From positions 381,290 through 445,289 of the forward strand of contig NZ_JAQSCU010000010.1 in the NCBI RefSeq assembly GCF_029945535.1: 64,000 nucleotides of DNA, given 5' to 3'. Shown here in pieces: positions 15,044 through 59,258 of the stretch. Position 1 is the stretch's first letter, and the number at the start of each line of letters is the position of its first letter. Made by a program: the position numbers and the translations under genes. The notes under the pieces are model-generated. The model ran no database searches and was not told the DNA's origin. It saw nothing but the letters and a program-made list of their open reading frames with translations. The stretch is from Methylotenera sp. (lineage in GTDB: Bacteria; Pseudomonadota; Gammaproteobacteria; Burkholderiales; Methylophilaceae).

Positions 15044-15079
15044 TTTTGTATCCTCTTTAAAAATTATATTTTATTGATT

Positions 15080-15892
15080 TTAACGACTACTGCCTGCGAT
15101 GCTTTCTGTGCCACGTGTTAAATAATATGCAGCAATAATAGGTATTGCTGTCACGAGCATGACCATCATTGCTACAACGTTGGTAATAGCCGAATCACGC
15201 GGTCTAGACAGTTGGTTGAGTAGCCAAATAGGTAGTGTTACTTCGTGACCCGCGGTGAAAATGGTCACAATCAGCTCATCAAATGAAAGCGCAAACGCCA
15301 GCAAAGCACCAGCTAATAAGGCGGTAGCAAGTTGCGGTAAGATGATGAATCTAAATGTGGTGAACCCATCTGCTCCTAAATCCATAGAAGCTTCAATCAA
15401 GTTATGCGGCATGCGCCTAAAACGTGCTACCACATTGTTATAAATCATCACTACACAAAATGTTGCATGACTGACGACGATAGTTAAAAAGCCTGGTGTA
15501 ATGTCTAGGATATTCATTGCAGAGAGTAATGCGATACCAGTAATAATGCCAGGAAGTGCGATAGGTAAAATCAGCATGGTTGTAATAGCTTCTTTGCCAA
15601 AAAAATTACGCCTGTATAGAGCAGCAGCGGTCATGGTGCCCATAATGATTGCCAGTGAAGTTGCGAATGCCGCCACTTTGAGCGATAAAGCAATCGCAGA
15701 CATAACATCTTCACGTGCAAAAGCAGCATGAAACCAATGCAAGGTAAAGTGTGTATGACTGCCATCGCTTACTAGAAAGGCATTAATCACGATGACAGCA
15801 ATTGGGACGTGTAAAAATACCAAGCCGCCATAAGCTAGTGTTTTTAGCCAAATGGGTGCGCTTGGTTGGTTTTTTTTCGTTTTAAAGAGCAT
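15080..15892 (-). CDS. ydcV: Polyamine ABC transporter permease (YdcV-like)
   Basis: A 270-residue inner-membrane permease with six predicted segments and the EAA loop near residues 165-185 ([24 protein letters not shown]), which docks on the ATPase. I prefer the ATG at 15892 (MLFKTKKNQ): GGAG lies 6 nt upstream, and the result matches the length of E. coli YdcV (264). A start 24 bp further up at 15916 would add MPNVPEHL. With the chosen start the gene overlaps ydcU by 11 bp, which implies translational coupling. It is the PotC/PotI-type partner of YdcU. Confidence 0.9.
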
Positions 15893-16826
15893 CAAATGCT
15901 CCGGTACGTTTGGCAAGTGATAAGTAAATAAAAATGAGCGTAATGGGTACCACTGTAAATGCTGCAGCCAGCGGCATATTGCCTACCGAGCCTTGCATTG
16001 TGTACACCATGGTGCCGATATATAAACCGCTTGGGCCAATAAGCTGCGGAATAATGTAATCGCCCAATGTAAGTGAGAAAGTAAAAATTGAGCCTGCCAC
16101 AACCCCAGGAAAGACCAGCGGCAGCAATACGCGACGAAAGGTTTGTGCAGGCTTTGCGCCTAAGTCGGCAGAGGCTTGCAGCAAATTGGTAGGCACGCGC
16201 TCAAGTGCGGCTTGTATAGGCAAAATCATAAAAGGCAGCCAAATATAGGTGAAAACGATAAAGCGCCCAAGATTAGAAGTTGCTAGCGTGTTGCCGCCAA
16301 TGGCTGGTATTTGTAGCACATGGTTAAGCGCACCGGATAAACCTAAATGATTGATGCACCAGTACAAAATTCCTTGTTGAGATAAAATCACCGTCCAAGC
16401 ATAGGTTTTAACGATGTAGCTTGCCCACATCGGCAACATTACTGCAATATAGAAAAAACCTTTTTCAGCTCGGCTACCGTAGCGCGTCATGTAGTAAGCA
16501 ATGGGGAAGCCAATCAATGCAGTTGCGAGCGTCACCGCAACTGCCATAGTGAGTGTACGCAGAATAATGTCAAAGTTAGTGGCATCGAAAAGACTGCGAT
16601 AGTTTTCAAGTGTTAAATCATTTGAAACAGCCATGCTGAAACTATCAAACGTATAAAAACTTTGCCACAATAAAGCGAATAACGAACCTAAGTAAACCAC
16701 TCCAAACCATAGTAGTGGCGGGGTGAGTAGCAAAAATAGGAAGAGATTGTTTTTACGGTAAAGCGTGTTACTGAACTTCCGTCCAAATGGCTTTGAAGTA
16801 TCTGCATTGATGATAGACGATTGCAT
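15882..16826 (-). CDS. ydcU: Polyamine ABC transporter permease (YdcU-like)
   Basis: A 314-residue permease of the PotB/PotH type. A cytoplasmic N-terminus of about 30 residues is followed by six hydrophobic segments. The EAA loop is near residues 210-235 ([24 protein letters not shown]). The central loop has [25 protein letters not shown], conserved in polyamine permeases. It starts 15 bp after the ydcT stop and overlaps ydcV at its 3' end. Confidence 0.93.
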
Positions 16827-16841
16827 GATGGCGGTGCGACA

Positions 16842-17891
16842 CTAGCTAGCTTGATTTTCCAGCATGACCATGCGGCTTTTTGACCAGCATAGGTTCAACC
16901 TCTGGCTGATTTTAGGTAGCTCAGCCTCAGAGAGCTCAGTGTTGGAAAGTACCATGAACAACATTTGGTTGCCAACGCTTACCTCGACCTTACTGGTAGC
17001 GCCATGGTATTGAATATCAACCACTTCACCCGCTACTTTGATGATGTCATTTTGCTTATCATTGAACTCATTAGTACCTAGCTTGATGTGCTCAGGACGT
17101 ATCGAAAATGGCTGATTTTGACCTGTAAGTTGTTGAGCCATAGCACTATTAATCACATTTGAAGTACCTACAAAATCTGCGACGAAGCTGGTTTTAGGGT
17201 GCATATACAGATTGCGTGGAGTATCAACTTGCTCGATTTTTCCACGATTAAATACTGCGACGCGATCAGACATGGATAAGGCCTCACTTTGGTCATGAGT
17301 GACATAAATGAAGGTAATGCCAAGTTTCTTATGTAGTGTTTTGAGTTCCAACTGCATTTGCTCGCGCAGCTTTAAATCCAACGCACCTAGCGGTTCATCC
17401 AGCAATAAAACGCGAGGTTTATTCACCAATGCCCGCGCCAATGCGACACGCTGACGCTGACCGCCTGATAACTCACCAGGTTTACGTTTGCCATATTCAG
17501 CCAAAGCGACTTGCTCTAGTGCTTGCTCTGCGCGCTTATAGCATTCTGGCTTGGCGATGCCTTTCACGCGAAGACCATAAGCAACGTTATCTAGCACATT
17601 CATATGTGGAAACAGCGCGTAATCCTGAAAAACTGTATTTACTTCTCGTTCATATGGTGGTGTTCCTGCTGCTTCTTTGCCGAAAATTTTAATGCTACCA
17701 ATGCTTGGCTGCTCAAAGCCAGCAATGAGTCGCAAGCAAGTGGTTTTGCCAGAACCACTTGGGCCAAGCATAGAAAAGAACTCGCCCTCTGCGACAGCAA
17801 TTGAAACGTTATCCACCGCACGAACATCGCCATAGTGTTTGCTGACGATAGAAAACTCTACGGCCGTAAACACATCTGGAATAGCAGTCAT
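16842..17891 (-). CDS. ydcT: Polyamine ABC transporter ATPase (YdcT-like)
   Basis: 349 residues. The nucleotide-binding domain has Walker A GPSGSGKT (about residues 43-50), the Q-loop FQDYALFPHM, the signature LSGGQRQRVALARAL, Walker B VLLLDEPLGALD and the H-loop VTHDQ. A C-terminal TOBE regulatory domain covers about 240-345 (SIRPEHIKLG). It powers the YdcU/YdcV permease pair. It starts 9 bp after the ydcS stop. Confidence 0.94.
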   Translation of the reverse strand: MTAIPDVFTAVEFSIVSKHYGDVRAVDNVSIAVAEGEFFSMLGPSGSGKTTCLRLIAGFEQPSIGSIKIFGKEAAGTPPYEREVNTVFQDYALFPHMNVLDNVAYGLRVKGIAKPECYKRAEQALEQVALAEYGKRKPGELSGGQRQRVALARALVNKPRVLLLDEPLGALDLKLREQMQLELKTLHKKLGITFIYVTHDQSEALSMSDRVAVFNRGKIEQVDTPRNLYMHPKTSFVADFVGTSNVINSAMAQQLTGQNQPFSIRPEHIKLGTNEFNDKQNDIIKVAGEVVDIQYHGATSKVEVSVGNQMLFMVLSNTELSEAELPKISQRLNLCWSKSRMVMLENQAS

Positions 17892-17900
17892 AAGCTAAAA

Positions 17901-19064
17901 CTATCTGCCGCCCATGATGGCAATATAGTCCGAAGTCCAACGGCTATAGGGCACACAGCCTTCTTTGAGTGAGCATTTGGCTTGTGGCGTTCTCCAGAAT
18001 TTAATTTCCGCATAACGACTAAAGCCATTATCTCCGCAGAAGTCGCTGCCGCCCGGTGCCTTGGTTTTACATGCCGTTGGCACCACAGGGTTAGAGCCAA
18101 ACCATTCAGCCACGCCCACTTGGGTTGCTGGTGCCAGTGAGTGTTCTAGCCATTTGTAAGCACAGTTCGGGTGTTTTGCTTTAGTGGCTAACATCGTTGT
18201 ATCTGCCCAGCCAGTAGCGCCTTCAGTTGGAATCACCGAGGCAATAGGCTGTTTTTCTGTTTTTAACGCATTCACCTGATATGGCCATGCGCCAGAGGCG
18301 ACTACACCTTCTTTTTTGAAGTCGGTCATTTGCACCGTCACATCATGCCAATATCGATGTGTAAGGGTCTTTTGCTGGCGCAGCAGCTTTAATACTGCGG
18401 CATATTGTTTTTCGTTCAATTCGTATGGATCTTTAATACCAAGAGAGGGGTCTTTTTTCATCAAATATAGCGCTGCATCAGCAATATAAATTGGCCCATC
18501 ATAGGCTTGAATACGACCTTTATTTGGTTTGCCGTCTGGTAGATTTTGTGGCTCGAATACCGTACCCCAAGAGGTAGGGGCTGTTTTGAAAGTGGTTGTG
18601 TTATACATCAATACATTTGGACCCCATTGATAAGGAACGCCGTAATGTTTACCACCTACAGTGTGCCATGGGGCATTCTGTAATCGACTATCAACAGTAG
18701 ACCAAGAGGGCACTAAGGCAGTGTTGATGGGTTGTACTTTTTTACCAGCCACTAACCTTAAACTAGCATCACCAGAAGCGGTAACTAAGTCATAGCCGCC
18801 TTTATTCATCAGTGAAACCATTTCATCCGAAGTACCGGCGGTTTTCACATTGACCTTGCAACCAGTTTCTTTCTCAAAACCTGTTACCCAGTCGTAATTT
18901 TTGTCAGATTCTCCACGCTCTAAGTATCCCGGCCAAGCAATGACATCTAATTGACCTTCACCTTGTCCAATTTTCGTAGTGTCAGCCTGAACGGTGTAAA
19001 TCCCAGCGATCAAACTGGTTGAAAAGGCAATGATTAAGGATTTTTTAACGAGTGTAGATGTCAT
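17901..19064 (-). CDS. ydcS: Polyamine ABC transporter periplasmic binding protein (YdcS-like)
   Basis: 387 residues with an N-terminal signal peptide (KKSLIIAFSTSLIAGIYTVQA, probable cleavage before DTT). The mature protein follows E. coli YdcS through LDVIAWPGYLERG, YDLVTASGDASLRL, YGVPYQWGPNVLMYN and the C-terminal WTSDYIAIMGGR. It delivers putrescine or related amines to YdcTUV. It is the first gene of the five-gene operon, with an AGGAGC ribosome-binding site. A MocR-type element lies about 107 bp upstream at 19171-19216. In E. coli YdcS has an additional reported activity unrelated to import, which is not testable here. Confidence 0.94.
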   Translation of the reverse strand: MTSTLVKKSLIIAFSTSLIAGIYTVQADTTKIGQGEGQLDVIAWPGYLERGESDKNYDWVTGFEKETGCKVNVKTAGTSDEMVSLMNKGGYDLVTASGDASLRLVAGKKVQPINTALVPSWSTVDSRLQNAPWHTVGGKHYGVPYQWGPNVLMYNTTTFKTAPTSWGTVFEPQNLPDGKPNKGRIQAYDGPIYIADAALYLMKKDPSLGIKDPYELNEKQYAAVLKLLRQQKTLTHRYWHDVTVQMTDFKKEGVVASGAWPYQVNALKTEKQPIASVIPTEGATGWADTTMLATKAKHPNCAYKWLEHSLAPATQVGVAEWFGSNPVVPTACKTKAPGGSDFCGDNGFSRYAEIKFWRTPQAKCSLKEGCVPYSRWTSDYIAIMGGR

Positions 19065-19170
19065 TTCTAAGCTCCTAATAATGTTGAAATTTCGAAAAAA
19101 TTAAAACGTATTATTTTTACTTGAATGAATGCAGATTTCTAACAATACAATAACATTGTTTTCTTATATT

Positions 19171-19216
19171 GGACATGCGGCAAGAGCCATTTAGGTTATT
19201 AGTCTAGAACCACTTT
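19171..19216 (-). promoter_or_regulatory. MocR-type operator upstream of ydcS
   Basis: Read on the minus strand, AAAGTGGTTCTA (19216 to 19205) is followed by TGGCTCT starting 27 bases from the first A (19189 to 19183), then GCATGTCC. The same two blocks at identical spacing occur at 27288 and 46550. The first block matches the motif I remember for the MocR regulator PdxR. The lrp-like dadR gene ends just beyond it at 19242. Confidence 0.75.
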
Positions 19217-19241: not shown

Positions 19242-19739
19242 TTAATCTTTAGTTTCCACCAACTGTAATGCAAAGCTTTCCTTAACTTCTTCCATCACAA
19301 TATAACTTCTAGACTCCTGTGCGCCTGGCAGCGTGAGTAATATGTCACCTAGCAAGGTTCGATAATCAGCCATTTGTGCAATACGTGCTTTGATGAGATA
19401 GTCAAAATCTCCGGATACCAAGTGACACTCTAGTACGCTGGGCAGCTTGAGTATTTCTTGTTTAAACTTACCGAAAATTGTCCCGGATTTGGTTGATAGC
19501 TTTAATTCGACAAATACCAGTAAGCCTAACCCGAGCGAGTGAGGGTCTAGGCGGGCGTGGTAGCCTAAAATCACACCTTCTTTCTCTAAAGTTTTGACAC
19601 GTTCGCCACAAGGCGTTACTGAAAGTCCGACGCGTTCTGCAAGTTCTGTAATTGGGATGCGAGCATTTTCCTGCAACACCGACAGTATTTTTAAGTCTAT
19701 ACGATCAAGTTCACGAACAGCATGGGTACGAATTCGCAT
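19242..19739 (-). CDS. dadR: Lrp/AsnC-family regulator, DadR-like
   Basis: A 165-residue Lrp-family protein. The N-terminal helix-turn-helix (about residues 10-65) reads LDRIDLKILSVLQENARIPITELAERVGLSVTPCGERVKTLEKEGVI. A C-terminal RAM ligand-binding domain follows (GDFDYLIKARIAQMADYRTLLGDILLTLPG). It is divergent from dadA-alr-ridA across a 224-bp AT-rich spacer. In Pseudomonas the DadR Lrp-type protein activates D-alanine dehydrogenase and the catabolic racemase in response to alanine, so that role is likely here. Confidence 0.88.
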   Translation of the reverse strand: MRIRTHAVRELDRIDLKILSVLQENARIPITELAERVGLSVTPCGERVKTLEKEGVILGYHARLDPHSLGLGLLVFVELKLSTKSGTIFGKFKQEILKLPSVLECHLVSGDFDYLIKARIAQMADYRTLLGDILLTLPGAQESRSYIVMEEVKESFALQLVETKD

Positions 19740-25495: not shown

Positions 25496-25879
25496 TTAGT
25501 TATTCCAAATCACATACACTTTCTTAATAGCCTCTACAGTTTCCCATGTGCCTTTAAATCCAGCTGGCAGCGCAAAAATACTGCCAGCACCAAACTCTTT
25601 AGCATTTCCATTAATATCGGTTAAGCGCACGCGGCCTTCTAAAATAACGCAAACTTCCTCCTCGGTATAATTGACAGTTTTAGCACCTACACTTGAGTGC
25701 CAAATGCCCGCAAAAAAATGTTCAGTAGGATCTGTGTAGTGGTTGTATGTTTCCATGGTGATTTTGGTCTTGGCATCGCTAGCAACGCCTGCTACTACTC
25801 GTTCTTGCGGCACTGTGCTAAGTTCAACTTCTACTTTATTGGTGGCAAAGTCAATCACATCATTTATTGTTTTATTCAT
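25496..25879 (-). CDS. Cupin-domain protein
   Basis: A 127-residue single cupin fold (about residues 60-125), recalling the EutQ/ureidoglycine-aminohydrolase-like group (formerly DUF861). Stretches are EHFFAGIWHSSVGAKTVNYTEEEVCVILEGRVRLTD and FGAGSIFALPAGFKGTWETVEAIKKVYVIW. The classical cupin histidines are mostly missing (EEE and one His), so a metal-dependent activity is uncertain. Its ATG overlaps the aminotransferase stop by 4 bp (ATGA), and the PotF-like binding protein follows, so it belongs to the same operon. Function unknown. Confidence 0.82.
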   Translation of the reverse strand: MNKTINDVIDFATNKVEVELSTVPQERVVAGVASDAKTKITMETYNHYTDPTEHFFAGIWHSSVGAKTVNYTEEEVCVILEGRVRLTDINGNAKEFGAGSIFALPAGFKGTWETVEAIKKVYVIWNN

Positions 25880-27243
25880 TGCTCAATCCCTTTTAAAAGA
25901 TCTTTTAAAAATTCATTAAATATCCGTACTAATTTTGCAATATCAGCTTCTGTTGTTACGGGGCAAATCAACATCATATTGTGAAATGGTGTGAGTAGAA
26001 CGCCGCGGTTGAGCAAATATAAATGTATGGCAGATTCTATGGTGTCGTTTTGTGCAGCGCGTGCTTCTGCAGCATTGCTGGGCGGGTTTGCACAAAATTG
26101 CAACTCAAGCCGCGCCCCCATGCGGCTAATACTCCATGGCAAGCCATAAGTTTTAATGACCTGATTAAATTGAATTTCTAGCTTGGTTGCCAAACCAAGC
26201 ATGTGTTGGTATGCGGCCTCCGTAGCGGTATCGCGCAATGTCGCGTTGATAGCCGCTAGTGTCATCATATTGCCAGATAAAGTCGTACCTATGCCAGAAT
26301 GCCCAGCAGGTGCTTCGTCTTTGGCTGCTTTCATACGGGCTGCCATCGCCTCGCTAAAACCATAGGCCGCTGCGGGTAAGCCCCCTGCGATGGGTTTGCC
26401 TACTACTAAGAAGTCCGGTGTGACGCTATTGGCTTTAGCCCAGCCGCCGCGTGCTGTTGATATTGTGTGGGTTTCATCAAGCGTTAATAATGTCCCGTAT
26501 TTTGAGGTGAGTGCGCGTAAACTTTCAATAAAACCTGCGTGCGGTAACACCATGCCACAGTTAGTGAGAGCTGGTTCAGTGAGTAGCACTGCGACATCGC
26601 CCTTGGCTAATTCATGTTCAACGGCGGCTAAATCGTTAAATGGCACTGCCACTGTGTGTAAGCCTAAATCGTACACTTGGCCTAATAAACTGGCGCGGTT
26701 AACAGTTTTGCCATTAACAATATCTATTTCAGTGTCATCTATTGTTCCATGATAGCAACCATCAAACACTAATAGCTTGCTGCGACCAGTCACCGCTCGT
26801 GCCCAGCGCAATACAAAGCGATTCGCATCTGTCGCGGTGGTGGCAAGCTGCCAATAATCTAAGCCAAAGAAGTCGCTTAAAGTCTCACCAACATCAGGCG
26901 CGAGTGTTGACGGCAACATTGCAGTGTAGCCACGACCAGCTTGTGCGGCGATTGCCTTAGCCACTGGCGCAGAACTATGCCCAAACATGGCGCCCGTGTC
27001 GCCTAAACAGAAGTCGGTGTAATCAATACCGTCTGCGCAGGTAAAGTGTGCGCCTTCGGCATGATTGATAAATAGCGGAACAGGTGTGCCCCAATCGTTC
27101 ATCCAATGCATAGGCACACCATACAGAAAGTGTTGGTTAGCCTTAACTGATAATTCGGCGGACTTAGGGTGCAGCTTCATGTAGCTGGCGCGCTCACTTG
27201 CTAGCAGGGCTTGAGCGTTAGTGATTAAGTTGGGATTTAACAT
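25876..27243 (-). CDS. Class III aminotransferase, GSA-aminotransferase-like
   Basis: 455 residues. The fold resembles glutamate-1-semialdehyde 2,1-aminomutase-type transaminases: YTDFCLGDTGAMFGHSSAPVAKAI, a catalytic lysine in FLVVGKPIAGGLPAAAYG (near residue 285), the aspartate in LLTLDETHTIS, and SGNMMTLAAINATL. It is not hemL: the N-terminus is longer, and the context is amine catabolism. It heads the operon with a cupin and a PotF-like binding protein and is divergent from an agmatinase-family gene and puuB. The likely substrate is an amine or amino acid derived from polyamines or guanidino compounds, but the sequence does not decide which. Confidence 0.87.
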   Translation of the reverse strand: MLNPNLITNAQALLASERASYMKLHPKSAELSVKANQHFLYGVPMHWMNDWGTPVPLFINHAEGAHFTCADGIDYTDFCLGDTGAMFGHSSAPVAKAIAAQAGRGYTAMLPSTLAPDVGETLSDFFGLDYWQLATTATDANRFVLRWARAVTGRSKLLVFDGCYHGTIDDTEIDIVNGKTVNRASLLGQVYDLGLHTVAVPFNDLAAVEHELAKGDVAVLLTEPALTNCGMVLPHAGFIESLRALTSKYGTLLTLDETHTISTARGGWAKANSVTPDFLVVGKPIAGGLPAAAYGFSEAMAARMKAAKDEAPAGHSGIGTTLSGNMMTLAAINATLRDTATEAAYQHMLGLATKLEIQFNQVIKTYGLPWSISRMGARLELQFCANPPSNAAEARAAQNDTIESAIHLYLLNRGVLLTPFHNMMLICPVTTEADIAKLVRIFNEFLKDLLKGIEQ

Positions 27244-27287: not shown

Positions 27288-27333
27288 AAAGTGGTTCTAA
27301 CTAAAATGCTAAATTGGCTCTATTTGTTAAACC
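27288..27333 (+). promoter_or_regulatory. MocR-type operator between aminotransferase and agmatinase genes
   Basis: AAAGTGGTTCTA (27288-27299) is followed by TGGCTCT at 27315-27321, a 27-base offset identical to those at 19216 (minus) and 46550. It lies in the 197-bp divergent spacer, 45 bp from the aminotransferase start and about 120 bp from the agmatinase start. A further dyad, TGTTAAAC-N10-GTTTAACA, overlaps its right end (27325-27350). Confidence 0.75.
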
Positions 27334-27350
27334 AAAGATTTAGTTTAACA
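27325..27350. promoter_or_regulatory. Perfect 8-bp dyad in the agmatinase promoter region
   Basis: TGTTAAAC, a 10-bp spacer, and GTTTAACA form an exact inverted repeat about 90 bp upstream of the agmatinase-family start. It could be an operator for a second regulator such as PuuR or LysR, but I do not recognise the motif. Confidence 0.4.
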
Positions 27351-27440: not shown

Positions 27441-28403
27441 ATGGATCACGGTTTTGCATTTAGCGCTACAGGAGGTTTTCTTGGCCTGCCAATTACAGAT
27501 TTGTTTACCTCAGAAAATGCGTCTCGGCAAGAAAGTCACGTTAGCACTTTTGCCGTAGCAGGTATTACGTGGGATGGCTGCGTGACCAATCGACCTGGTG
27601 CGCGCTTTGGACCCAATGCTATACGCCAAGCCAGTCATATGCTATGCGGAGATGAACATCCATTATTTGATGTTACCCCTGTCGACAATACCTTGGATTT
27701 AGGGAATTTATTGCTACCCAATACCAGTCTTGAAAGCATGCGCGCTGCGCTGATGCCACAAGCTAGTGCGTTAATTGGTCAATACGAAATGGTTTGGTTG
27801 GGTGGCGACCACTCAATTACTTTGCCTTTGTTACGTGCTTACTTCGCACATTACCAACAGCCACTCGCGTGCATTCATTTTGATGCCCACTGTGATACTT
27901 GGGAAAGTCATTTTGGCGAACCCTCTGGACATGGCACTTGGGTGTATGAAGCGATTACCGAAGGTTTGGTTGATCCTAAATGCTTTATACAAATTGGCAT
28001 ACGTTCATCCGGCGAGCGTGCGGCGCGTGAATTTGTAAATGATCAAGGAGGCAGAATCTTCACCGCACGTGAACTACGTGGCAAAGATGGCGCAGGCTTG
28101 CAAAGTGTCATTGATGAAGTGCGCGAACGCATGGCAAAAGCCGGTAATCCGCCTTTATATTTAAGCTTCGACATTGATGCATTAGACCCAGCATTTGCAC
28201 CAGGTACAGGCACGCCAGAAGTTGGCGGATTAACCACTGCGCAAGCCATGACATTGCTAGAAGCTTGGCACGATTTGAACTGGGTAGGCATGGATTTATG
28301 TGAAGTATCTCCGCCTTATGATCACGCTGAATTAACTTCAAATGCTGCCGCAACTTTGATATGGACGTGGCTGTGCGGGCGTATTGTTGCAAAAAGAACT
28401 TAG
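27441..28403 (+). CDS. speB: Agmatinase-family ureohydrolase
   Basis: 320 residues of the arginase/agmatinase superfamily, which hydrolyses a guanidino group to urea. The binuclear Mn ligands are all visible: GGDHS, HFDAHCDTW and SFDIDALDP, plus the family signature LDPAFAPGTGTPEVGGL. The C-terminus VGMDLCEVSPPYDHAELTSNAAATLIW follows E. coli SpeB. Agmatine to putrescine is the likely reaction; guanidinobutyrate or guanidinopropionate hydrolysis by the same family cannot be excluded. A very strong ribosome-binding site (GGGGGAGG) precedes the ATG. puuB follows 64 bp downstream. Confidence 0.9.
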   Translation: MDHGFAFSATGGFLGLPITDLFTSENASRQESHVSTFAVAGITWDGCVTNRPGARFGPNAIRQASHMLCGDEHPLFDVTPVDNTLDLGNLLLPNTSLESMRAALMPQASALIGQYEMVWLGGDHSITLPLLRAYFAHYQQPLACIHFDAHCDTWESHFGEPSGHGTWVYEAITEGLVDPKCFIQIGIRSSGERAAREFVNDQGGRIFTARELRGKDGAGLQSVIDEVRERMAKAGNPPLYLSFDIDALDPAFAPGTGTPEVGGLTTAQAMTLLEAWHDLNWVGMDLCEVSPPYDHAELTSNAAATLIWTWLCGRIVAKRT

Positions 28404-28467: not shown

Positions 28468-29808
28468 ATGTCTGCCGCTACAGAATTAAAGCTTACACAA
28501 AACTCATATTACGCGGCGAGTGCGAACGAACAGCCTATTTATTCTAAACTTGAGTCAAATATCGAAGCTGATGTTTGCGTGGTTGGGGGTGGCTTTGCCG
28601 GACTATCTGCCGCGATAGAGCTAGCAGATCGTGGTTACTCAGTCGTTGTGCTGGAAGCTAAGCATATAGGTTGGGGCGCTAGTGGTCGCAATGGTGGGCA
28701 AATTATTGCAGGCCTTGCATGCGAGCAAGATGTCATTGAAAAAGCATTGGGTTTTGACGCAGCCAAAAAAGTGTGGGGCATGTCGCTAGAAGCCCTAGAT
28801 TTGGTGAGAGAGCGCATTAAACGCTTTGACATAGACTGCGACTTAAGCGATGGCTTTCTTGGCGTTTCGGTCAATGCAAAAAAAGGCGCTTATCTACGTA
28901 GTTGGTATGAAGATATGGCAAAGCGCTATCATTATGATACCGATACGCAATGGATAGAGCCTAAAGACCTGCGTAGTTGGATAGATAGCCCGCGCTATTT
29001 CAACGGCTATTTTGATAAGCGCTCAGGGCATTTGCATCCGCTTAATTATTGTCTAGGCTTGGCGAAAGGCGCAAGCCGTATTGGCGTGCGTGTTTTCCAA
29101 AATTCAGCTGTTACTGCAATGCAGCATGCAAATGTTAGCAATAATGAATCTGCTTATTTGCAAACTGCTACTGGCAGCGTTAAGGCAAAGTTCGTTGTAC
29201 TGGCAGGTAATATGTATTTACCTGAAATTTCACCTAAACTTGCGCCAAGTTTAGCTAAGCGCATTATGCCTGTTGGTACTTATATCATTGCAACTGAGCC
29301 GATTGCGCCCAGTTTAGCTAGCAAGTTAATCCCCACTAATTCAGCTGTTTGCGATACTAATTTTGTACTCGATTACTTTAGGTTTTCTGCCAACACCAAA
29401 GCAAGCGGACCACGTATGATTTATGGCGGGCGTGTGAGTTATAGTGCATTAACGCCGCCTAATCTTACGCAAAATATGCAAGCACGTATGGCCGAGACTT
29501 TCCCCCAACTTAAAAACACCAAAGTGGATTTCACTTGGGGTGGCTTCGTCGATATTACGATGAATCGCGCACCAGATTTTGGGCGGATCTCGCCTAACGT
29601 CTATTATTTACAGGGTTTTTCAGGGCATGGGGTGGCGCTAACTGGTTTGGCGGGAAAGCTAGTTGCAGAAGCCATAGCAGGGCAGGCTGAGCGCTTAGAT
29701 TTGTTAGCAAGTATTAAGCATCATGACTTTCCTGGTGGAAAGTTATTGCGTACGCCCGCATTGGTACTAGGTATGTTGTGGTATCAATTGCGAGATAAAT
29801 TGGGTTAA
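28468..29808 (+). CDS. puuB: Gamma-glutamylputrescine oxidoreductase
   Basis: 446 residues, close to E. coli PuuB (426). The FAD-binding motif VCVVGGGFAGLSAAIELADRG is near residues 36-56. Shared landmarks are NSYYAASANE, IGWGASGRNGGQI, ERIKRFDIDCDL, SGHLHPLNYCLGLAKGA, YLQGFSGHGVALTGLAGKL and the end DFPGGKLLRTP to LRDKLG. It oxidises gamma-glutamylputrescine to the aldehyde with release of ammonia and hydrogen peroxide. Its partner ligase PuuA and aldehyde dehydrogenase PuuC are about 20-30 kb away at 47498 and 56419. Confidence 0.94.
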   Translation: MSAATELKLTQNSYYAASANEQPIYSKLESNIEADVCVVGGGFAGLSAAIELADRGYSVVVLEAKHIGWGASGRNGGQIIAGLACEQDVIEKALGFDAAKKVWGMSLEALDLVRERIKRFDIDCDLSDGFLGVSVNAKKGAYLRSWYEDMAKRYHYDTDTQWIEPKDLRSWIDSPRYFNGYFDKRSGHLHPLNYCLGLAKGASRIGVRVFQNSAVTAMQHANVSNNESAYLQTATGSVKAKFVVLAGNMYLPEISPKLAPSLAKRIMPVGTYIIATEPIAPSLASKLIPTNSAVCDTNFVLDYFRFSANTKASGPRMIYGGRVSYSALTPPNLTQNMQARMAETFPQLKNTKVDFTWGGFVDITMNRAPDFGRISPNVYYLQGFSGHGVALTGLAGKLVAEAIAGQAERLDLLASIKHHDFPGGKLLRTPALVLGMLWYQLRDKLG

Positions 29809-44931: not shown

Positions 44932-46506
44932 TCATTGTCTCAATGCTGTCTGTATCACCTCTGCCAATTTACTTCCATATTCCGTAATGTGCTCTGTAGC
45001 GGAATACGCATAGCCAATAATCAAACCTTTTTCGGTGGTTTCACCCATGCAATAGTGCGATAGCGGGTAAACGCGTAAACCTTGAGCTGAGGCTAGTTCG
45101 GCCACTTGCACGTCGTCGCATATTGAGTCAAATTCAACTACTAAATGCAGGCCAGAATCTACCGTGGACAGCCTTGCGCCTACCGTGGCGATTGGGGCTA
45201 ATGCTGCTTGTAGTAACCGTCTGCGTTCACCATATATTTGTCGCAATCTTCTGATGTGGCTGGCGAAATGACCTTCTTCAATGAAGTCTGCCAGTGCGGC
45301 TTGAATGACTACTTGTCCGGGCCGTTGTAGTTCATATAAGCCACTTTTAAAGCTTTCTACTAAATTGGGAGGCACCACTAAATAGCCTAAACGAATACCT
45401 GGGTACATCACTTTTGAAAACGTGCCTAAATAAAGCACGCGACCGTTTTGATCCATGCCTTGTAATGATGAGATTGGGCGACCTTCAAAGCGAAACTCGC
45501 TGTCGTAATCGTCTTCAATAATCCATCCTTTGCAGTTTTGCGCATAATCCAATAACAAGCGGCGGCGGCCATAGCTCATGACCATGCCTTTGGGGTATTG
45601 GTGCGATGGTGTGGTGTAAATCAGGCGCGGCGTAGTGCGATAATCTTTAGTGCTCGGTGCCATGCCTTCTTTGTCTACGTTGACAGGGTGTAGTTGCAAG
45701 CCATTCACTTCTAATACACGTCGAGCAGCCCAATAACCCGGGTTTTCTACCCATGCACAATCGCCGTGGTCTGTGAGTAAGCGTGCACATAAATCAATGG
45801 ATTGTTGCGTTCCTGAGGTAATCAGCACTTGGTCAAATGTGAGGTTAACCGCACGCGATACTCTTAAATAATCGGCAATAGCTTTTCGTAATGGTAAATA
45901 GCCGCCGTCATGGCTGGAGTCTAGCAAGGCGGGATTTGGCGTGCGCCATTGCCGATTGAGTAATCGACGCCATAGCGCATAAGGAAAGCCTGCGTAATCA
46001 TCTTCACCAGGTGTGAAAGGCTGTACCTCGTTATGAATTCTAGTGTTATTAACTTTTGCTTGCGATTGATGTTCTTTTATAGCGCCACATGCCGCTAATC
46101 CACGTTTAGATAACCCAATGGAATCTTCAAGTTTTACATAGGTATTTTCTGCGTTGGGTTCAGTACTAGATTCAGCTAATTGTTCTTCTACAATACTGTT
46201 ATTAGCAATGCTTTTTGAAAATCCATCGTGCTTATTGTAAGTAACGTAGGTGCCGCTACCCGTTTGCGATGCAACATAACCTTCATCCAATAGTTGTTCA
46301 AAAGCCGCTAGTATGGTGTTACGTGATACGGTTAAATCTTCTGCCAAACTCCTTGTGGAAGGTAAACGCTCTCCGGCTGATAAAATTTGCGTGGTAATAG
46401 CGCGGCGAATCACTTCGTAGATGCGCCTGTGGTTAGGCATCCGCACTGGAAAGTCTGAGTGGTTAAGCTGCGTTAATAGCCATTCTGAAAGCACAAGTTG
46501 TTTCAT
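44932..46506 (-). CDS. MocR-family regulator (GntR-aminotransferase fusion, GabR/PdxR-like)
   Basis: 524 residues. The N-terminal GntR winged helix is at about residues 12-85 (RIYEVIRRAITTQILSAGERLPSTRSLAEDLTVSRNTILAAFEQLLDEGYV). A type I aminotransferase-like domain follows from about 165, with the PLP lysine in LGTFSKVMYPGIRLGYLV and ESPGYW-like ENPGYWAARR. A long, low-complexity linker (about 90-160) joins them. MocR proteins bind PLP and an amine ligand to control nearby genes; GabR controls gabTD. This one is divergent from puuD at the head of the polyamine cluster, with an operator in the spacer that is repeated at two other polyamine loci. Confidence 0.92.
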   Translation of the reverse strand: MKQLVLSEWLLTQLNHSDFPVRMPNHRRIYEVIRRAITTQILSAGERLPSTRSLAEDLTVSRNTILAAFEQLLDEGYVASQTGSGTYVTYNKHDGFSKSIANNSIVEEQLAESSTEPNAENTYVKLEDSIGLSKRGLAACGAIKEHQSQAKVNNTRIHNEVQPFTPGEDDYAGFPYALWRRLLNRQWRTPNPALLDSSHDGGYLPLRKAIADYLRVSRAVNLTFDQVLITSGTQQSIDLCARLLTDHGDCAWVENPGYWAARRVLEVNGLQLHPVNVDKEGMAPSTKDYRTTPRLIYTTPSHQYPKGMVMSYGRRRLLLDYAQNCKGWIIEDDYDSEFRFEGRPISSLQGMDQNGRVLYLGTFSKVMYPGIRLGYLVVPPNLVESFKSGLYELQRPGQVVIQAALADFIEEGHFASHIRRLRQIYGERRRLLQAALAPIATVGARLSTVDSGLHLVVEFDSICDDVQVAELASAQGLRVYPLSHYCMGETTEKGLIIGYAYSATEHITEYGSKLAEVIQTALRQ

Positions 46507-46549: not shown

Positions 46550-46595
46550 AAAGTGGTTCTATCTAAATAATCTAAATGGCTCTTGTTGCATTACC
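46550..46595 (+). promoter_or_regulatory. MocR-type operator between mocR and puuD
   Basis: AAAGTGGTTCTA (46550-46561) and TGGCTCT (46577-46583) are direct repeats of a TGG(T/C)TCT core 23 bp apart. GCATTACC follows. It lies between divergent mocR and puuD. The same arrangement is present at 19171-19216 (minus) and 27288-27333. Confidence 0.8.
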
Positions 46596-46615
46596 AATTT
46601 TAGGAATAGTATACT
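46586..46615 (+). promoter_or_regulatory. Predicted promoter of the puuD operon
   Basis: TTGCAT (46586-46591) and TATACT (46610-46615) are 18 bp apart. The MocR element ends on the -35 box, the expected place for an activator. A start near 46622 would give a 21-nt leader before the puuD ATG. Confidence 0.5.
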
Positions 46616-46642: not shown

Positions 46643-47416
46643 ATGATGACAACAAAACGTAAACCTATAGTTTTAATCCCTGCGGATGTTAAGCCGCTAG
46701 GCGAGCATCCATTTCATGTGGTGGGTCATAAGTATTTAGTGGCGGTTGCAGAAGCCGCTGGTGCATTGCCTTTAGTGGTGCCTGCCATTGGTGATTTATT
46801 AGAGATTGACGCTTTGCTAGCCATTGCCGATGGCATATTGCTAACAGGCTCGGTTTCCAATGTGCATCCTTCACACTTCGACCAAGAAGTACACAATCCC
46901 GCATTACCATTAGACCCCGCGCGTGATGCGCTTACCTTAAAACTCGTGCAAGCAGCCATTAAAGCCGAAGTGCCTTTATTGGCTATTTGCCGCGGTTTTC
47001 AAGAGGTGAATGTAGCGTTTGGCGGCAGTTTGCATCAGGCGGTACATGAAATATCTGGCTTGAATGATCATAGAGAAACTAAGGATGTTCCCATCGATAT
47101 TCAATATGCACAGGCACATTTGATTGACTTAGTGCCTGATGGCAAGCTAGCTAAAATCGTTGGTGCGCAACAGATGATGGTGAACTCCTTACATGGCCAA
47201 GGTATAGATAGACTTGGCGATGGCTTAGTAGCAGAAGCCTTCGCGCCAGACGGTTTAGTGGAAGCCATACGTGTAGAAAAAGCCAAAGCCTTTACTTTAG
47301 CTGTGCAATGGCACCCAGAGTGGAGAGTCATGGAAAATCCACAGTATTTGGCTATTTTCAAGGCATTTGGTGATGCCTGCAGATTCAGACTGAGAAGGCA
47401 CGAGCCACCAGATTAA
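46643..47416 (+). CDS. puuD: Gamma-glutamyl-GABA hydrolase
   Basis: 257 residues, class I glutamine amidotransferase-like (peptidase C26). The nucleophile is Cys116 in LAICRGFQE, with His224 and Glu226 in VQWHPEW. Length and sequence follow E. coli PuuD (254) and Pseudomonas SpuA. It releases GABA and glutamate from gamma-glutamyl-GABA, the last step of the glutamylated putrescine route. It is the first gene after the MocR operator. Two ATGs occur in tandem at 46643 and 46646 and the ribosome-binding site is weak, so the start is uncertain by one codon. Confidence 0.94.
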   Translation: MMTTKRKPIVLIPADVKPLGEHPFHVVGHKYLVAVAEAAGALPLVVPAIGDLLEIDALLAIADGILLTGSVSNVHPSHFDQEVHNPALPLDPARDALTLKLVQAAIKAEVPLLAICRGFQEVNVAFGGSLHQAVHEISGLNDHRETKDVPIDIQYAQAHLIDLVPDGKLAKIVGAQQMMVNSLHGQGIDRLGDGLVAEAFAPDGLVEAIRVEKAKAFTLAVQWHPEWRVMENPQYLAIFKAFGDACRFRLRRHEPPD

Positions 47417-48958: not shown

Positions 48959-50326
48959 ATGATCAATACTAAAGAAATCCAAGCAATAGATTCAGCGCAT
49001 TACATGCATCCTTTTACCGATCATAAAAGCTTGTCGGATAAAGGCTCACGTATTATTGCTAAGGCAGGTGGCATCTATATTTGGGATTCCACTGGTGAAA
49101 AAATCTTAGATGCGATGTCTGGTTTATGGTGTGTGAATGTCGGCTATGGGCGTAAAGAGCTGGTAGATGCAGCCGCTAAACAGATGCTAGAACTGCCTTA
49201 CTACAATAGTTTTTTTCAAACGACCAACGTTCCGGCAGTGAAGCTGGCAGAAAAAATCATCAAGCTGGCAGGTGATGATTATAGCCATGTATTTTTTAGT
49301 AGCTCTGGTTCTGAGTCGAATGATACCAACGTACGTATGGTGCGCCATTATTGGGCAACGCTTGGTCAGCCAGAACGCACGGTGATTATCAGCCGTAATA
49401 ACGCCTATCACGGCTCAACGCTAGTGGGTTCATCTTTAGGTGGCATGGAAGGTATGCATGCGCAAGGCGGCATGATTTCAGGCATAGAACACATAGAGCA
49501 GCCATACCATTACGGCATGGCGCCAAATCAGGATAGTGATGCCTTTGGCATTGAAGCGGCGGGTTGGTTAGAGAAAAAGATTCTGGAAGTTGGCGCAGAT
49601 AAAGTCGCTGCATTTATAGGGGAACCTGTGCAAGGCGCTGGCGGTGTGATTATTCCACCTAAAACTTACTGGCCAGAGATTCAACGTATCTGCGATAAAT
49701 ACGGCATTTTGCTGATTTGCGACGAAGTGATTTGCGGCTTTGGCCGTCTTGGTAAATGGTTTGGCTCGCAACTATTAGGTTGCAAACCCGACTTAATGAC
49801 GTTTGCTAAAGGCGTGACTTCTGGCTACATTCCTTTAGGAGGCGTTGTTGTGGGCAAACGTGTAGCTAAAGTATTGATTGAACAAGGTGGTGAATTCAAT
49901 CATGGCTATACTTATTCAGGACACCCAACCGCCTGCGCTGTGGCATTAGCCAATATTGAAATTATGGAGCGCGAAGGTTTACCCGACAAAGTGCTTAATG
50001 AAACAGGCCCATATTTAGCGCAGAAATATGCCGAGCTAGCCAAACACCCATTGGTTGGTGGTGCGGAAACATTAGGATTAGTCGCAGGCTTCGTGCTGAT
50101 GAAAGACAAAGCAAACCACGTACATTTTGATGAAGAGGTCGGTGTAGGCATGATTTGCCGAGGCCATTGTTTTGCCAATGGCTTGATTATGCGAGCGGTA
50201 GGTGACCGCATGATTATTGCGCCACCGCTAGTGATTACTAAAGCGCAAATTGATGAAATGGTCGCGTTGATTCTGAAATGTCTAGATGCGACATTGGCTG
50301 ATTTGAAAAAGCAGGGAATGATGTAA
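48959..50326 (+). CDS. spuC: Putrescine:pyruvate aminotransferase (SpuC-like)
   Basis: A 455-residue class III PLP aminotransferase. Motifs: AHYMHPFTDHKSLSDKGSRIIAKAGG at the N-terminus (typical of SpuC), FFSSSGSESNDTNVRMVRHYW, LLICDEVICGFGRLG, and the PLP lysine in LMTFAKGVTSGYIPLGG (near residue 285). It converts putrescine to 4-aminobutanal with pyruvate as acceptor, giving a route that bypasses glutamylation; PatD or PuuC can then oxidise the aldehyde. It lies in the spuABC-type order puuD-puuA-spuC. Confidence 0.92.
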   Translation: MINTKEIQAIDSAHYMHPFTDHKSLSDKGSRIIAKAGGIYIWDSTGEKILDAMSGLWCVNVGYGRKELVDAAAKQMLELPYYNSFFQTTNVPAVKLAEKIIKLAGDDYSHVFFSSSGSESNDTNVRMVRHYWATLGQPERTVIISRNNAYHGSTLVGSSLGGMEGMHAQGGMISGIEHIEQPYHYGMAPNQDSDAFGIEAAGWLEKKILEVGADKVAAFIGEPVQGAGGVIIPPKTYWPEIQRICDKYGILLICDEVICGFGRLGKWFGSQLLGCKPDLMTFAKGVTSGYIPLGGVVVGKRVAKVLIEQGGEFNHGYTYSGHPTACAVALANIEIMEREGLPDKVLNETGPYLAQKYAELAKHPLVGGAETLGLVAGFVLMKDKANHVHFDEEVGVGMICRGHCFANGLIMRAVGDRMIIAPPLVITKAQIDEMVALILKCLDATLADLKKQGMM

Positions 50327-54956: not shown

Positions 54957-56417
54957 ATGTCAATTCAATTAAAGCATTCCGTATTACTCAAAAATAATCT
55001 TACCTTGCTCGCTGGGCAATGGGAGAGTGCAGATTCAGGTGAAACGATAAGTGTCACTAATCCTGCTACAGGCTTAGAGGTGGCTAAAGTGCCGCTTATG
55101 GGTCGCGCCGAAGCTGAGCGCGCGATTGTGGCTGCTGAAGCTGCTCAAAAGTCATGGAAAACGCTCACAGCGGCCGCACGTGCTGCCATACTCAAGCGCT
55201 GGTTTGATTTGATTATTCTGCACAAAGAAGATTTGGCGCAATTACTAACTGCTGAGCAAGGTAAGCCGCTAGCCGAAGCGCGCGGAGAGGTGAATTACGG
55301 CGCAAGCTTTATTGAATGGTTTGCCGAAGAAGCTAAACGTGTCTATGGTGAGACAATCCCTGCGCCTATGGGCGACCGTCGTTTATTGGTACTAAAACAA
55401 CCAATTGGTGTAACAGCCGCCATTACGCCATGGAATTTCCCCATTGCAATGATTACCCGTAAAGCGGGACCTGCGCTTGCTGCTGGTTGCAGCATGATAA
55501 TTAAACCTGCTGAACAGACACCTTTATGCGCCATTGCTTTAGCCGTATTGGCTGAAGAGGCTGGCGTGCCTAGCGGCGTGTTGCAAGTGATTACAGGCGA
55601 TGCACGCCAAATCGGCGCAGCCTTTTGTGAAAGCCCAGTAGTCGCCAAGCTTTCGTTCACAGGGTCAACGGAAGTCGGACGTATCTTAATGCGTCAATGC
55701 GCTGATACCATTAAAAAGCTATCTCTTGAATTGGGTGGTAATGCGCCATTCATCGTGTTTAACGATGCTGATTTAGATGCGGCAGTTGAAGGTGCCATGA
55801 TTAGTAAATACCGCAATGCTGGGCAGACTTGTGTTTGTTCAAACCGCTTGTTTGTGCAAGAGGGCGTGTACGATGCGTTCGCCAAAAAACTTGCAGTCAA
55901 AGTGGCTCAGCTCAAAGTGGGTGCGGGTACTGAAGAGGACGTAACCCAAGGCCCATTGATTGATGATGCAGCTATTGAGAAAGTCGAAAGCCATGTGGCA
56001 GATGCCGTTGCCAAAGGCGCAACGGTGATACAAGGTGGCAAGCGCCATACTTTAGGCGGTACATTCTTTGAGCCTACCGTGCTAGCAAATGTAAGCGATG
56101 ATGCTCTAATTTTTAGCGAAGAAACCTTTGGTCCTGTGGCGCCATTATTCCGCTTTAAGACAGATGCAGAAGTCATTGAATTAGCAAATCGCACTGAGTT
56201 TGGTTTAGCCTCTTATTTCTACAGCCGAGATATTGGCCGAATCTGGCGCGTAGCAGAGGCGCTTGAATATGGCATGGTAGGCGTAAACACTGGCATGATT
56301 TCCAATGAAGTTGCACCTTTTGGGGGCATTAAGCAATCAGGTCTGGGTCGCGAAGGTTCGCATCACGGCATTGATGAATATCTAGAACTGAAATATGTAT
56401 GTATGGCGGGGCTATAA
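54957..56417 (+). CDS. gabD: Succinate-semialdehyde dehydrogenase
   Basis: 486 residues, typical GabD length. It oxidises succinate semialdehyde (from GABA) to succinate with NAD(P). The catalytic cysteine is in YRNAGQTCVCSNRLFV (near residue 290), the general base glutamate in LELGGNAPFIVFNDADLD, and the substrate region AITPWNFPIAMITRKAGPALAAGC. The C-terminus PFGGIKQSGLGREGSHHGIDEYLELKYVC is diagnostic. puuC follows immediately (1 bp gap), so the genes are coupled. Confidence 0.95.
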   Translation: MSIQLKHSVLLKNNLTLLAGQWESADSGETISVTNPATGLEVAKVPLMGRAEAERAIVAAEAAQKSWKTLTAAARAAILKRWFDLIILHKEDLAQLLTAEQGKPLAEARGEVNYGASFIEWFAEEAKRVYGETIPAPMGDRRLLVLKQPIGVTAAITPWNFPIAMITRKAGPALAAGCSMIIKPAEQTPLCAIALAVLAEEAGVPSGVLQVITGDARQIGAAFCESPVVAKLSFTGSTEVGRILMRQCADTIKKLSLELGGNAPFIVFNDADLDAAVEGAMISKYRNAGQTCVCSNRLFVQEGVYDAFAKKLAVKVAQLKVGAGTEEDVTQGPLIDDAAIEKVESHVADAVAKGATVIQGGKRHTLGGTFFEPTVLANVSDDALIFSEETFGPVAPLFRFKTDAEVIELANRTEFGLASYFYSRDIGRIWRVAEALEYGMVGVNTGMISNEVAPFGGIKQSGLGREGSHHGIDEYLELKYVCMAGL

Positions 56418-57974: not shown

Positions 57975-59258
57975 ATGAGCAACACAACAATCACCAATCA
58001 AGATCTACACAACAGACGTTTGGTCGCCACGCCACGCGGCATAGGCGTGATGGCCAACTTCTTTATTGAGCGTGCGCTTAACTCTGAGGTATGGGATGTT
58101 GAAGGTAAGCGTTATATCGACTTTGCAGGTGGTATTGCTGTATTAAATACTGGGCACAGACACCCAAAGATAGTGGCTGCTATTGAAGCGCAACTAAAAC
58201 AGTTTACCCATACTTGCTACCAAGTGCTGCCGTATGAAAGCTATGTCACATTGGCTGAGCGTATTAATGCGTTAACACCAGGCAAACACGCTAAGAAAAC
58301 CTGTTTTTTCTCAAGTGGTGCAGAAGCCCTAGAAAACGCTATTAAAATTGCACGTGCAAGTACTGGACGCCCAGGCATTGTTGCCTTTGCTGGCGCATTT
58401 CATGGCCGCACGATTATGACCAGCGCGATGACAGGCAAGGTTTCACCTTATAAAATCGGTTTTGGGCCATTCCCCGCTGAGATATATCACATACCATTTC
58501 CAATTGATTTGCATGGTGTCAGCGTTGAAGATTCTATCAATGCGTTGCACTTGCTATTCAAGGCTGATATTGATCCTAAGCGCGTTGCCGCAATTGTGAT
58601 TGAGCCCGTGCAAGGTGAGGGTGGCTTTTATGCCGCGCCACCAGCTTTAATGCAAGCGTTACGCAAAGAGTGCGATGAGCATGGCATTTTGCTGATTTAT
58701 GATGAAGTGCAAACTGGTTTTGGTCGTACTGGTAAGTTATTTGCGGCAGAACATTATGACGTGATACCAGACATCATTACGATGGCAAAAAGCTTAGCCG
58801 GTGGTACTACTTTATCTGCGGTTTGCGGTAAAGCTGAAGTGATGGATGGTCCTGCACCGGGTGGTTTAGGTGGAACTTACGCAGGCAACCCATTAGCCAT
58901 TGCAGCCTCTCACGCAGTACTGGATATTATTGAAGAAGAAAAGTTAGTTGAGCGTGCGAATGTGTTGGGCTCGAAACTCACTGCACGTCTTAAAGCCGCG
59001 CAAGCTAAAGTGCCTGCAATTAAAGATGTACGCGGCTTGGGCTCTATGATTGCCGCTGAGTTTTTTGATCCAATTACCAATGAGCCGTCTATGGATGCAG
59101 TAAAACGTGTGCAGCAAGCGGCGTTAGCTGAAGGCTTGATACTGCTGACTTGCGGCGTTTATGGTAATGCCATTCGCTTTCTGTATCCATTGACAATTCA
59201 AGACGAAATATTTGATGAGGCGCTTGATATTATTGATAGAGCATTGGCTAAAGCTTGA
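57975..59258 (+). CDS. gabT: 4-aminobutyrate aminotransferase
   Basis: 427 residues, like E. coli GabT (426). A class III PLP enzyme that moves the amino group of GABA to 2-oxoglutarate, yielding succinate semialdehyde for GabD. Motifs: FFSSGAEALENAIKIARASTGRPGI, FHGRTIMTSAMTGK, LLIYDEVQTGFGRTG, and the PLP lysine in IITMAKSLAGGTTLSAV (near residue 268). The GGTYAGNPLA sequence is typical of GabT and PuuE. It is the last gene of the polyamine cluster, 62 bp after puuC. PuuE is an alternative name, since the two are close paralogues in E. coli. Confidence 0.94.
   Translation: MSNTTITNQDLHNRRLVATPRGIGVMANFFIERALNSEVWDVEGKRYIDFAGGIAVLNTGHRHPKIVAAIEAQLKQFTHTCYQVLPYESYVTLAERINALTPGKHAKKTCFFSSGAEALENAIKIARASTGRPGIVAFAGAFHGRTIMTSAMTGKVSPYKIGFGPFPAEIYHIPFPIDLHGVSVEDSINALHLLFKADIDPKRVAAIVIEPVQGEGGFYAAPPALMQALRKECDEHGILLIYDEVQTGFGRTGKLFAAEHYDVIPDIITMAKSLAGGTTLSAVCGKAEVMDGPAPGGLGGTYAGNPLAIAASHAVLDIIEEEKLVERANVLGSKLTARLKAAQAKVPAIKDVRGLGSMIAAEFFDPITNEPSMDAVKRVQQAALAEGLILLTCGVYGNAIRFLYPLTIQDEIFDEALDIIDRALAKA

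Follow-up and report, generated by a model that had tools for sequence, protein, structure and literature searches.

A three-box operator predicted to link a MocR-type regulator with three polyamine gene units in Methylotenera

Background

The spacer between a MocR-type regulator gene and a puuD-like gene of Methylotenera sp. contains a 12-base block, AAAGTGGTTCTA, that recurs upstream of two further polyamine-related gene units on the same contig. This raises the question of whether a single regulator reads a common operator at all three places. Below, the window is the whole stretch of 64,000 nucleotides that was analysed. Comparison of sequences within and beyond the genome indicates that the element very probably serves as operator for the MocR protein whose gene lies at 44932-46506; it is a three-box site oriented toward puuD, agmatinase and ydcS, and predicted binding of the regulator there would coordinate the three units.

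The regulator and the three gene units

The genes under consideration are:

44932..46506, minus strand: MocR-type regulator gene, encoding a GntR winged helix and an aminotransferase-like domain in 524 amino acids (NCBIfam, PDB sequence matches, tree)
46643..47416, plus strand: puuD-like gene, heading a same-strand run that extends to 59258 (PuuD model 178 bits, cut-off 266)
48959-50326: aminotransferase (NCBIfam, over curated cut-off)
54957-56417: succinate-semialdehyde dehydrogenase (NCBIfam, over curated cut-off)
57975-59258: GABA transaminase (NCBIfam, over curated cut-off)
27441..28403, plus strand: agmatinase gene, predicted target of operator 2 (TIGR01230 183.3 bits, cut-off 174.3)
28468-29808: FAD oxidoreductase, after the agmatinase
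25876..27243, minus strand: PRK07046-type aminotransferase, divergent from the agmatinase across operator 2 (718 bits, cut-off 425)
17901..19064, minus strand: ydcS-like gene, heading the ydcSTUV-patD run at 13610-19064 (YdcS model 647.6 bits, under the cut-off of 725)
13610-15043: aminobutyraldehyde dehydrogenase subfamily (PRK13473 804.5 bits, over the cut-off of 615)
19242-19739: gene for an Lrp-like protein, neighbour of the ydcS unit

The regulator combines an N-terminal GntR winged helix (PF00392, 57.7 bits, cut-off 27) with a C-terminal fold-type-I aminotransferase-like domain, in which alignment to the GabR structure sequence places the PLP lysine at Lys365. This lysine is kept in 18 of 18 Methylophilaceae rows (13 distinct) and in ten of ten further orthologs. 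The best PDB sequence match is 7pq9, which we take to be a PdxR, and GabR (4n0b/4mgr) is also matched. Among the NCBIfam models, that for PdxR scores over its cut-off (431.9 bits, cut-off 320), while those for rhizopine MocR (461 bits, cut-off 650) and GabR (308.9 bits, cut-off 600) fall under theirs; the PdxR name does not fit the target genes. Among the best 80 of at least 592 matches, the named records closest to the regulator come from Methylotenera and other Methylophilaceae.

The run headed by puuD comprises puuA-like, aminotransferase, potFGHI-like, gabD-like, puuC-like and gabT-like genes, and probably constitutes one operon extending to 59258. Several names are the best or plausible ones under the NCBIfam cut-off: gamma-glutamylputrescine synthetase (194 of 650 bits), PotF (409 of 636) and PuuC (682 of 850). 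The divergent layout of the PRK07046-type aminotransferase and the agmatinase across the operator is kept in several relatives.

Anatomy of the operator and its uniqueness in the genome

The three sites are made up of the following boxes:

46550..46561, plus strand: operator 3, box 1 (direct), AAAGTGGTTCTA (pattern search, alignment)
46574..46583, plus strand: operator 3, box 2 (direct), AAATGGCTCT, with its TGG core 23 bases after the TGG core of box 1
46593..46598, minus strand: operator 3, box 3 (inverted), ACCAAT on the plus strand, found at the same offset in 22 of 22 mocR/puuD sites
27288..27299, plus strand: operator 2, box 1, AAAGTGGTTCTA (pattern search in window and genome)
27312..27321, plus strand: operator 2, box 2, AATTGGCTCT (pattern search, alignment)
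27331..27336, minus strand: operator 2, box 3 (inverted), ACCAAA on the plus strand (three-box pattern)
19205..19216, minus strand: operator 1, box 1, AAAGTGGTTCTA (pattern search)
19183..19192, minus strand: operator 1, box 2, AAATGGCTCT (pattern search, alignment)
19168..19173, plus strand: operator 1, box 3, in inverted sense to the other two boxes and reading TCCAAT on the minus strand (three-box pattern)

At each of the three sites TGGCTCT begins 27 bases after the first A of AAAGTGGTTCTA, and the identical 12 bases at a fixed offset that were reported in the preliminary description are indeed exact, with 0 mismatches. When the two-block pattern AAAGTGGTTCTA-N15-TGGCTCT is allowed up to three mismatches, the window yields three matches, all of them exact, against 0.01 expected from shuffles, which bears out the earlier view that the three-locus recurrence is unlikely by chance. 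The 12-mer alone, with up to two mismatches, gives 12 matches against 5.4 expected, or about twice chance; on its own it is weak evidence, and it is the two-block combination that counts. A scan of the whole genome (3,006,219 bases in 19 contigs), as the preliminary description had suggested, recovers only the same three two-block sites at up to three mismatches, all at polyamine units and not at many unrelated loci, with 0 matches to the reversed-pattern control.

The site had been described as a direct repeat. This holds for its two direct boxes, but a third box was overlooked: a CCAA core, in inverted sense to the TGG cores, lies 10 bases after TGGCTCT at all three sites. The full puuD-side operator thus reads AAAGTGGTTCTA-N12-AAATGGCTCT-N9-ACCAAT. 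With a looser three-box pattern, the genome again yields these three sites at 0 mismatches, along with one match at three mismatches, and the reversed control yields two. An operator with repeated TGG/TGT boxes beside the regulator's own gene, a feature of MocR-type systems, is therefore present, and two direct boxes plus one inverted box are the commonest MocR layout in Table 2 of Suvorova & Rodionov 2016 (PMC5320631). Box 1 fits the PdxR motif as printed, AAAGTGGW(-/T)CTA (PMC4494728), so that the likeness to PdxR noted previously finds its counterpart in the literature.

Recognition by independent matrices and the question of the cognate regulator

When the boxes alone of 12 mocR/puuD operators from other genomes are made into a matrix, the three window sites come out on top, at 48.0, 40.8 and 39.3, against 6.0 for the next match and 14.2 for the best of five Markov sequences; since two of these 12 operators are letter-identical to the puuD site of the window, the agmatinase and ydcS sites are the fair tests. 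A second matrix, drawn from 17 operators that belong to MocR genes with an identity of 51% or less, again places the window sites first (32.8, 31.5 and 28.5; next match 15.2, Markov best 17.2), these 17 being mostly from Burkholderiales and chosen by eye for diversity and fit from 73 distant named loci. At 72 of the 73 distant loci the best match is oriented away from mocR.

These distant loci also bear on whether the site might be read by another regulator and lie beside mocR by chance. The Lrp-like protein (19242-19739) is one candidate, as its gene adjoins the ydcS unit both in the window and in relatives, and another is offered by the three further MocR-type genes of the genome. Of the 73 distant mocR homologues, however, 51 have the two-block site with up to five mismatches upstream, as against 1 of 73 shuffled stretches, whereas the Lrp query finds no match within about 3 kb at any of 80 named loci. 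Moreover, the site tracks the presence of mocR (see below), and no three-box operator is found near the other three MocR-type genes, where the best match has six mismatches. We accordingly regard a different cognate regulator as highly improbable, and favour the MocR protein of 44932-46506; the other three MocR-type proteins could bind the operator too. These three genes lie on other contigs, two of them in tandem, and two of the three are alike by eye.

Operator and regulator in the Methylophilaceae

Among 187 Methylophilaceae genomes, 21 have a mocR ortholog at an E-value of 1e-100 or better, and a 22nd (G200) bears a partial mocR at a contig end. One cultured strain of the family with the regulon is Methylovorus sp. 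MM2, which has mocR, puuD and agmatinase. The three-box site, at 0-1 mismatch, is present in 22 of 22 genomes with mocR and in 2 of the 165 others (G192 and G205); the co-occurrence value of 1e-26 is inflated by relatedness and by the pattern having been written from the positives. The 44 sites at this stringency in mocR-bearing genomes all fall upstream of mocR/puuD (22), agmatinase (11) or ydcS (11), with none elsewhere, and a 12th agmatinase site, in G203, has two mismatches. Twelve genomes without mocR contain 13 further matches at two mismatches, which look fortuitous.

The two exceptional genomes differ in context. In G192, which is 87% complete and in which no mocR was found, the site (L300, 3001-3047) lies directly before patD, with no ydcS match within the 6 kb stretch; it may be a real operator. 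Around the G205 site, none of the queried genes occurs within 5 kb.

A stricter comparison is provided by a genus set of 49 genomes. Here all 11 genomes with mocR have an intact site before puuD, as against none of the 7 without it (Fisher 3e-5); for agmatinase the figures are 6 of 6 and 0 of 5, respectively (Fisher 0.002). We use these genus-only values because G200 and six of the agmatinase genomes, which were found through the site itself, enter into the wider counts (22/22 against 0/7, and 12/12 against 0/5); the genomes are also related, and the counts are not independent. G038 was left out, as the regions upstream of its puuD and agmatinase are cut off by a contig end. Close ydcS orthologs (87-100%) occur in four of the 49 genus genomes, all with mocR and all with the site. 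Three ydcS rows from other families (G061, G064 and G076) have no site, nor do the other-family puuD rows (G061, G069, G079 and G074) and agmatinase row (G079) that were kept out of the counts.

The seven puuD genomes lacking mocR are G015, G020, G042, G022, G035, G010 and G034; the stretches examined contain no mocR match of at least 60 bits, several of the assemblies being incomplete (G022 77%, G020 85%). Among them, G015 has no mocR in its assembly, yet keeps a three-mismatch site, G042 has all three box cores changed, and G020 has boxes 1 and 3 changed. On the puuD tree, the mocR-less rows call for two or more separate changes, and the loss pattern is therefore not one event.

The same comparison speaks to the notion that the three sites arose by recent duplication of a single intergenic stretch and were not selected for binding. 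Similar sequence within one genome is what such copying would leave. Among the operators of relatives, however, the spacers vary more than the boxes, and they differ between site classes while the boxes agree; each site class recurs in several genera, and the boxes change where mocR is absent. We attach almost no credence to duplication. A shared operator joining three polyamine units in one regulon is, in contrast, strongly supported by these comparisons: the proposal of the preliminary description, one MocR, one operator and three polyamine units, stands as a prediction backed by uniqueness in the genome, the same targets in relatives, co-occurrence with mocR, loss or decay of the site where mocR is missing, and recognition by matrices.

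Several features of gene order were also observed. In G007, G001 and G203 the piece carrying agmatinase and the FAD oxidoreductase adjoins the mocR-puuD piece, and because these pieces adjoin in several relatives, the separation of the units in the window may reflect local rearrangement of one cluster. In the mocR-less G020 (L306) and G010 (L308), the puuD run follows agmatinase and the FAD oxidoreductase in the same orientation without an intervening mocR, an arrangement suggestive of a deletion of mocR that joined the units. G025, which has mocR and in which no agmatinase was found, bears a three-mismatch operator before the FAD oxidoreductase (L319, 164-210), with the third box core lost. 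The closely related mocR-less G035 (L138) and G034 (L140) have in common a stretch situated about 50 bases ahead of puuD, which might hold a different regulatory site.

Promoters and proposed mode of control

Two candidate promoter elements lie next to the operator at puuD:

46610..46615, plus strand: candidate -10 of puuD, TATACT, part of the self-complementary AGTATACT (position conserved)
46635 to 46608, minus strand: candidate mocR promoter, TTTGCA from 46635, N16 and TATACT to 46608, sharing AGTATACT with the puuD -10 (promoter scan)

TATAC or AATAC is found 11-12 bases after CCAA at puuD in 22 of 22 genomes. The minus-strand mocR match is weak, with one found against 0.7 expected, and its partner motif occurs in 19 of 22 genomes under a loose pattern; overall, the promoter scans gave nothing above chance at any of the three sites, and neither the agmatinase nor the ydcS site yielded a match. 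Relative to the candidate core promoter of puuD, the two direct boxes stand just upstream and the inverted box falls inside, between the TTG after box 2 and the -10.

Two other promoter assignments were set aside. Sigma-54 promoters require 10 bases from GG to GC; a TGG...TTGC element at the puuD site of the window has a GG-to-GC distance of 8, and its TTGC is not conserved. For mocR, a -35 TTGGTA (in box 3) with a -10 TAGATT between boxes 1 and 2 was seen by eye and was not chosen over the minus-strand match from the scan, both being candidates.

We propose that MocR with PLP would bind all three sites and thereby coordinate the uptake and breakdown of putrescine and agmatine. At puuD, binding to boxes 1 and 2 could help the polymerase, while binding to box 3 could block it, and a ligand, probably some amine or amino acid from the polyamine pathway, would shift this balance. 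As transcription from the candidate mocR promoter would pass through the operator, bound MocR would also repress its own gene. This model of target control with self-repression follows the behaviour of published PdxR regulators, which activate their targets and repress their own gene (PMC5320631).

Alternatively, MocR might act at the predicted operators as a repressor only, with box 3 blocking the polymerase until ligand releases the protein and with no activation. The position of box 3 within the candidate core promoter would suit this, as would the mocR-less G015, G042 and G020, in which the puuD core promoter is largely kept (most of its bases in G042 and G020) while the boxes change, as if the promoter works without MocR. 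Retention of the core promoter is equally compatible with loss of a repressor and loss of an activator. Against pure repression, boxes 1 and 2 stand at a fixed distance upstream of the candidate puuD promoter, and PdxR, GabR and TauR are published as activators (PMC5320631). We therefore consider pure repression somewhat unlikely and prefer the dual mode of control.

The putative ligand pocket

A quick tree with flagged long branches groups the MocR protein with Derxia and one proteobacterial bin in a puuD-linked clade, apart from a gab-linked group (SH-aLRT 99), the label gab-linked resting on weak neighbour matches to the spuC or patD proteins of the window. Residue 480 is arginine in 48 of 48 gab-linked rows, in both other puuD-linked rows (Derxia and the bin) and in 26 of the 31 rows that lack all of these neighbours. 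Among 20 readable Methylophilaceae orthologs, a count that leaves out G009 and the part gene of G200, it is instead tyrosine (18), serine (1) or asparagine (1), and never arginine (0/20). The presumed PdxR 7pq9 also has tyrosine here. Loss of Arg480 is a weak hint that leans away from GABA being held as it may be in the gab-linked proteins.

The arginines that contact the GABA carboxylate in GabR, Arg207 and Arg430 (PMC6917764), align with Ala260 and His484 of the present protein (HMMER alignment, by eye). Their loss was dropped as the main argument against GABA, given that the gab-linked rows have glycine at 260 in 47 of 48 cases and arginine at 484 in only 12 of 48. Because Arg207 is variable among MocR proteins (PMC6677901) and the gab-linked relatives mostly lack both arginines, Ala260 and His484 say little on the ligand.

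A more specific scenario would have a polyamine-dedicated MocR in the puuD-linked clade, whose Methylophilaceae branch lost Arg480 and recognizes a diamine (putrescine or agmatine) in the form of an adduct with PLP, instead of an amino acid, and whose operators decayed after loss of the regulator while the promoter stayed. We hold this to be unlikely as a whole; the diamine-sensing reading is marked down because the gab-linked relatives are without Arg207 too, and because Derxia and the bin keep Arg480.

Relationship to known MocR regulons and implications

The kind of system is known. The proteobacterial GabR and GabR2 regulons (Suvorova & Rodionov 2016, PMC5320631) likewise have a MocR protein with two direct boxes and one inverted box; among their predicted members, those of GabR in some Comamonadaceae include puuA, puuD and a putrescine transporter, and those of GabR2 include the speB agmatinase. 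The present MocR differs from proteobacterial GabR in lying outside the gab-linked clade, in the puuD-linked one, and in being without Arg480, and its predicted regulon adds ydcSTUV-patD to what is predicted for GabR and GabR2. With PdxR of Corynebacterium glutamicum and others it shares the box 1 motif, a score over the NCBIfam PdxR cut-off and the divergent layout of regulator and target, for which activation and autorepression are reported in PdxR (PMC5320631). In contrast to PdxR, its predicted targets are polyamine genes and its operator has a third, inverted box; the control of PLP synthesis or salvage genes that defines PdxR by function is not seen, as all three genomic sites lie at polyamine units and no pdx genes occur in the three units. 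Bacillus subtilis GabR has the same domain plan, and its PLP lysine, Lys312, aligns with Lys365, whereas Ala260 and His484 replace Arg207 and Arg430 and the score is under the GabR cut-off.

MocR regulons with puuA, puuD or speB have thus already been predicted in other Betaproteobacteria, and this member was not found described. The main text of PMC5320631 has no word beginning "Methylo", and the titles and abstract openings of the listed papers on MocR, putrescine and Methylophilaceae, or on Methylotenera and putrescine, likewise gave no such regulon. In the literature searched, MocR appears together with puuD only in PMC5320631, and together with agmatinase there and in one E. coli/colon study. 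Methylotenera versatilis 301 is reported to encode putrescine transporters and a degradation pathway (PMC6794327).

The predicted system would be a small regulon of three sites and one regulator in a methylotroph family. Its mocR-less relatives with changed operators make the contribution of each MocR box testable, and the changed residue of the putative pocket does the same for sensing by a MocR protein without Arg480.
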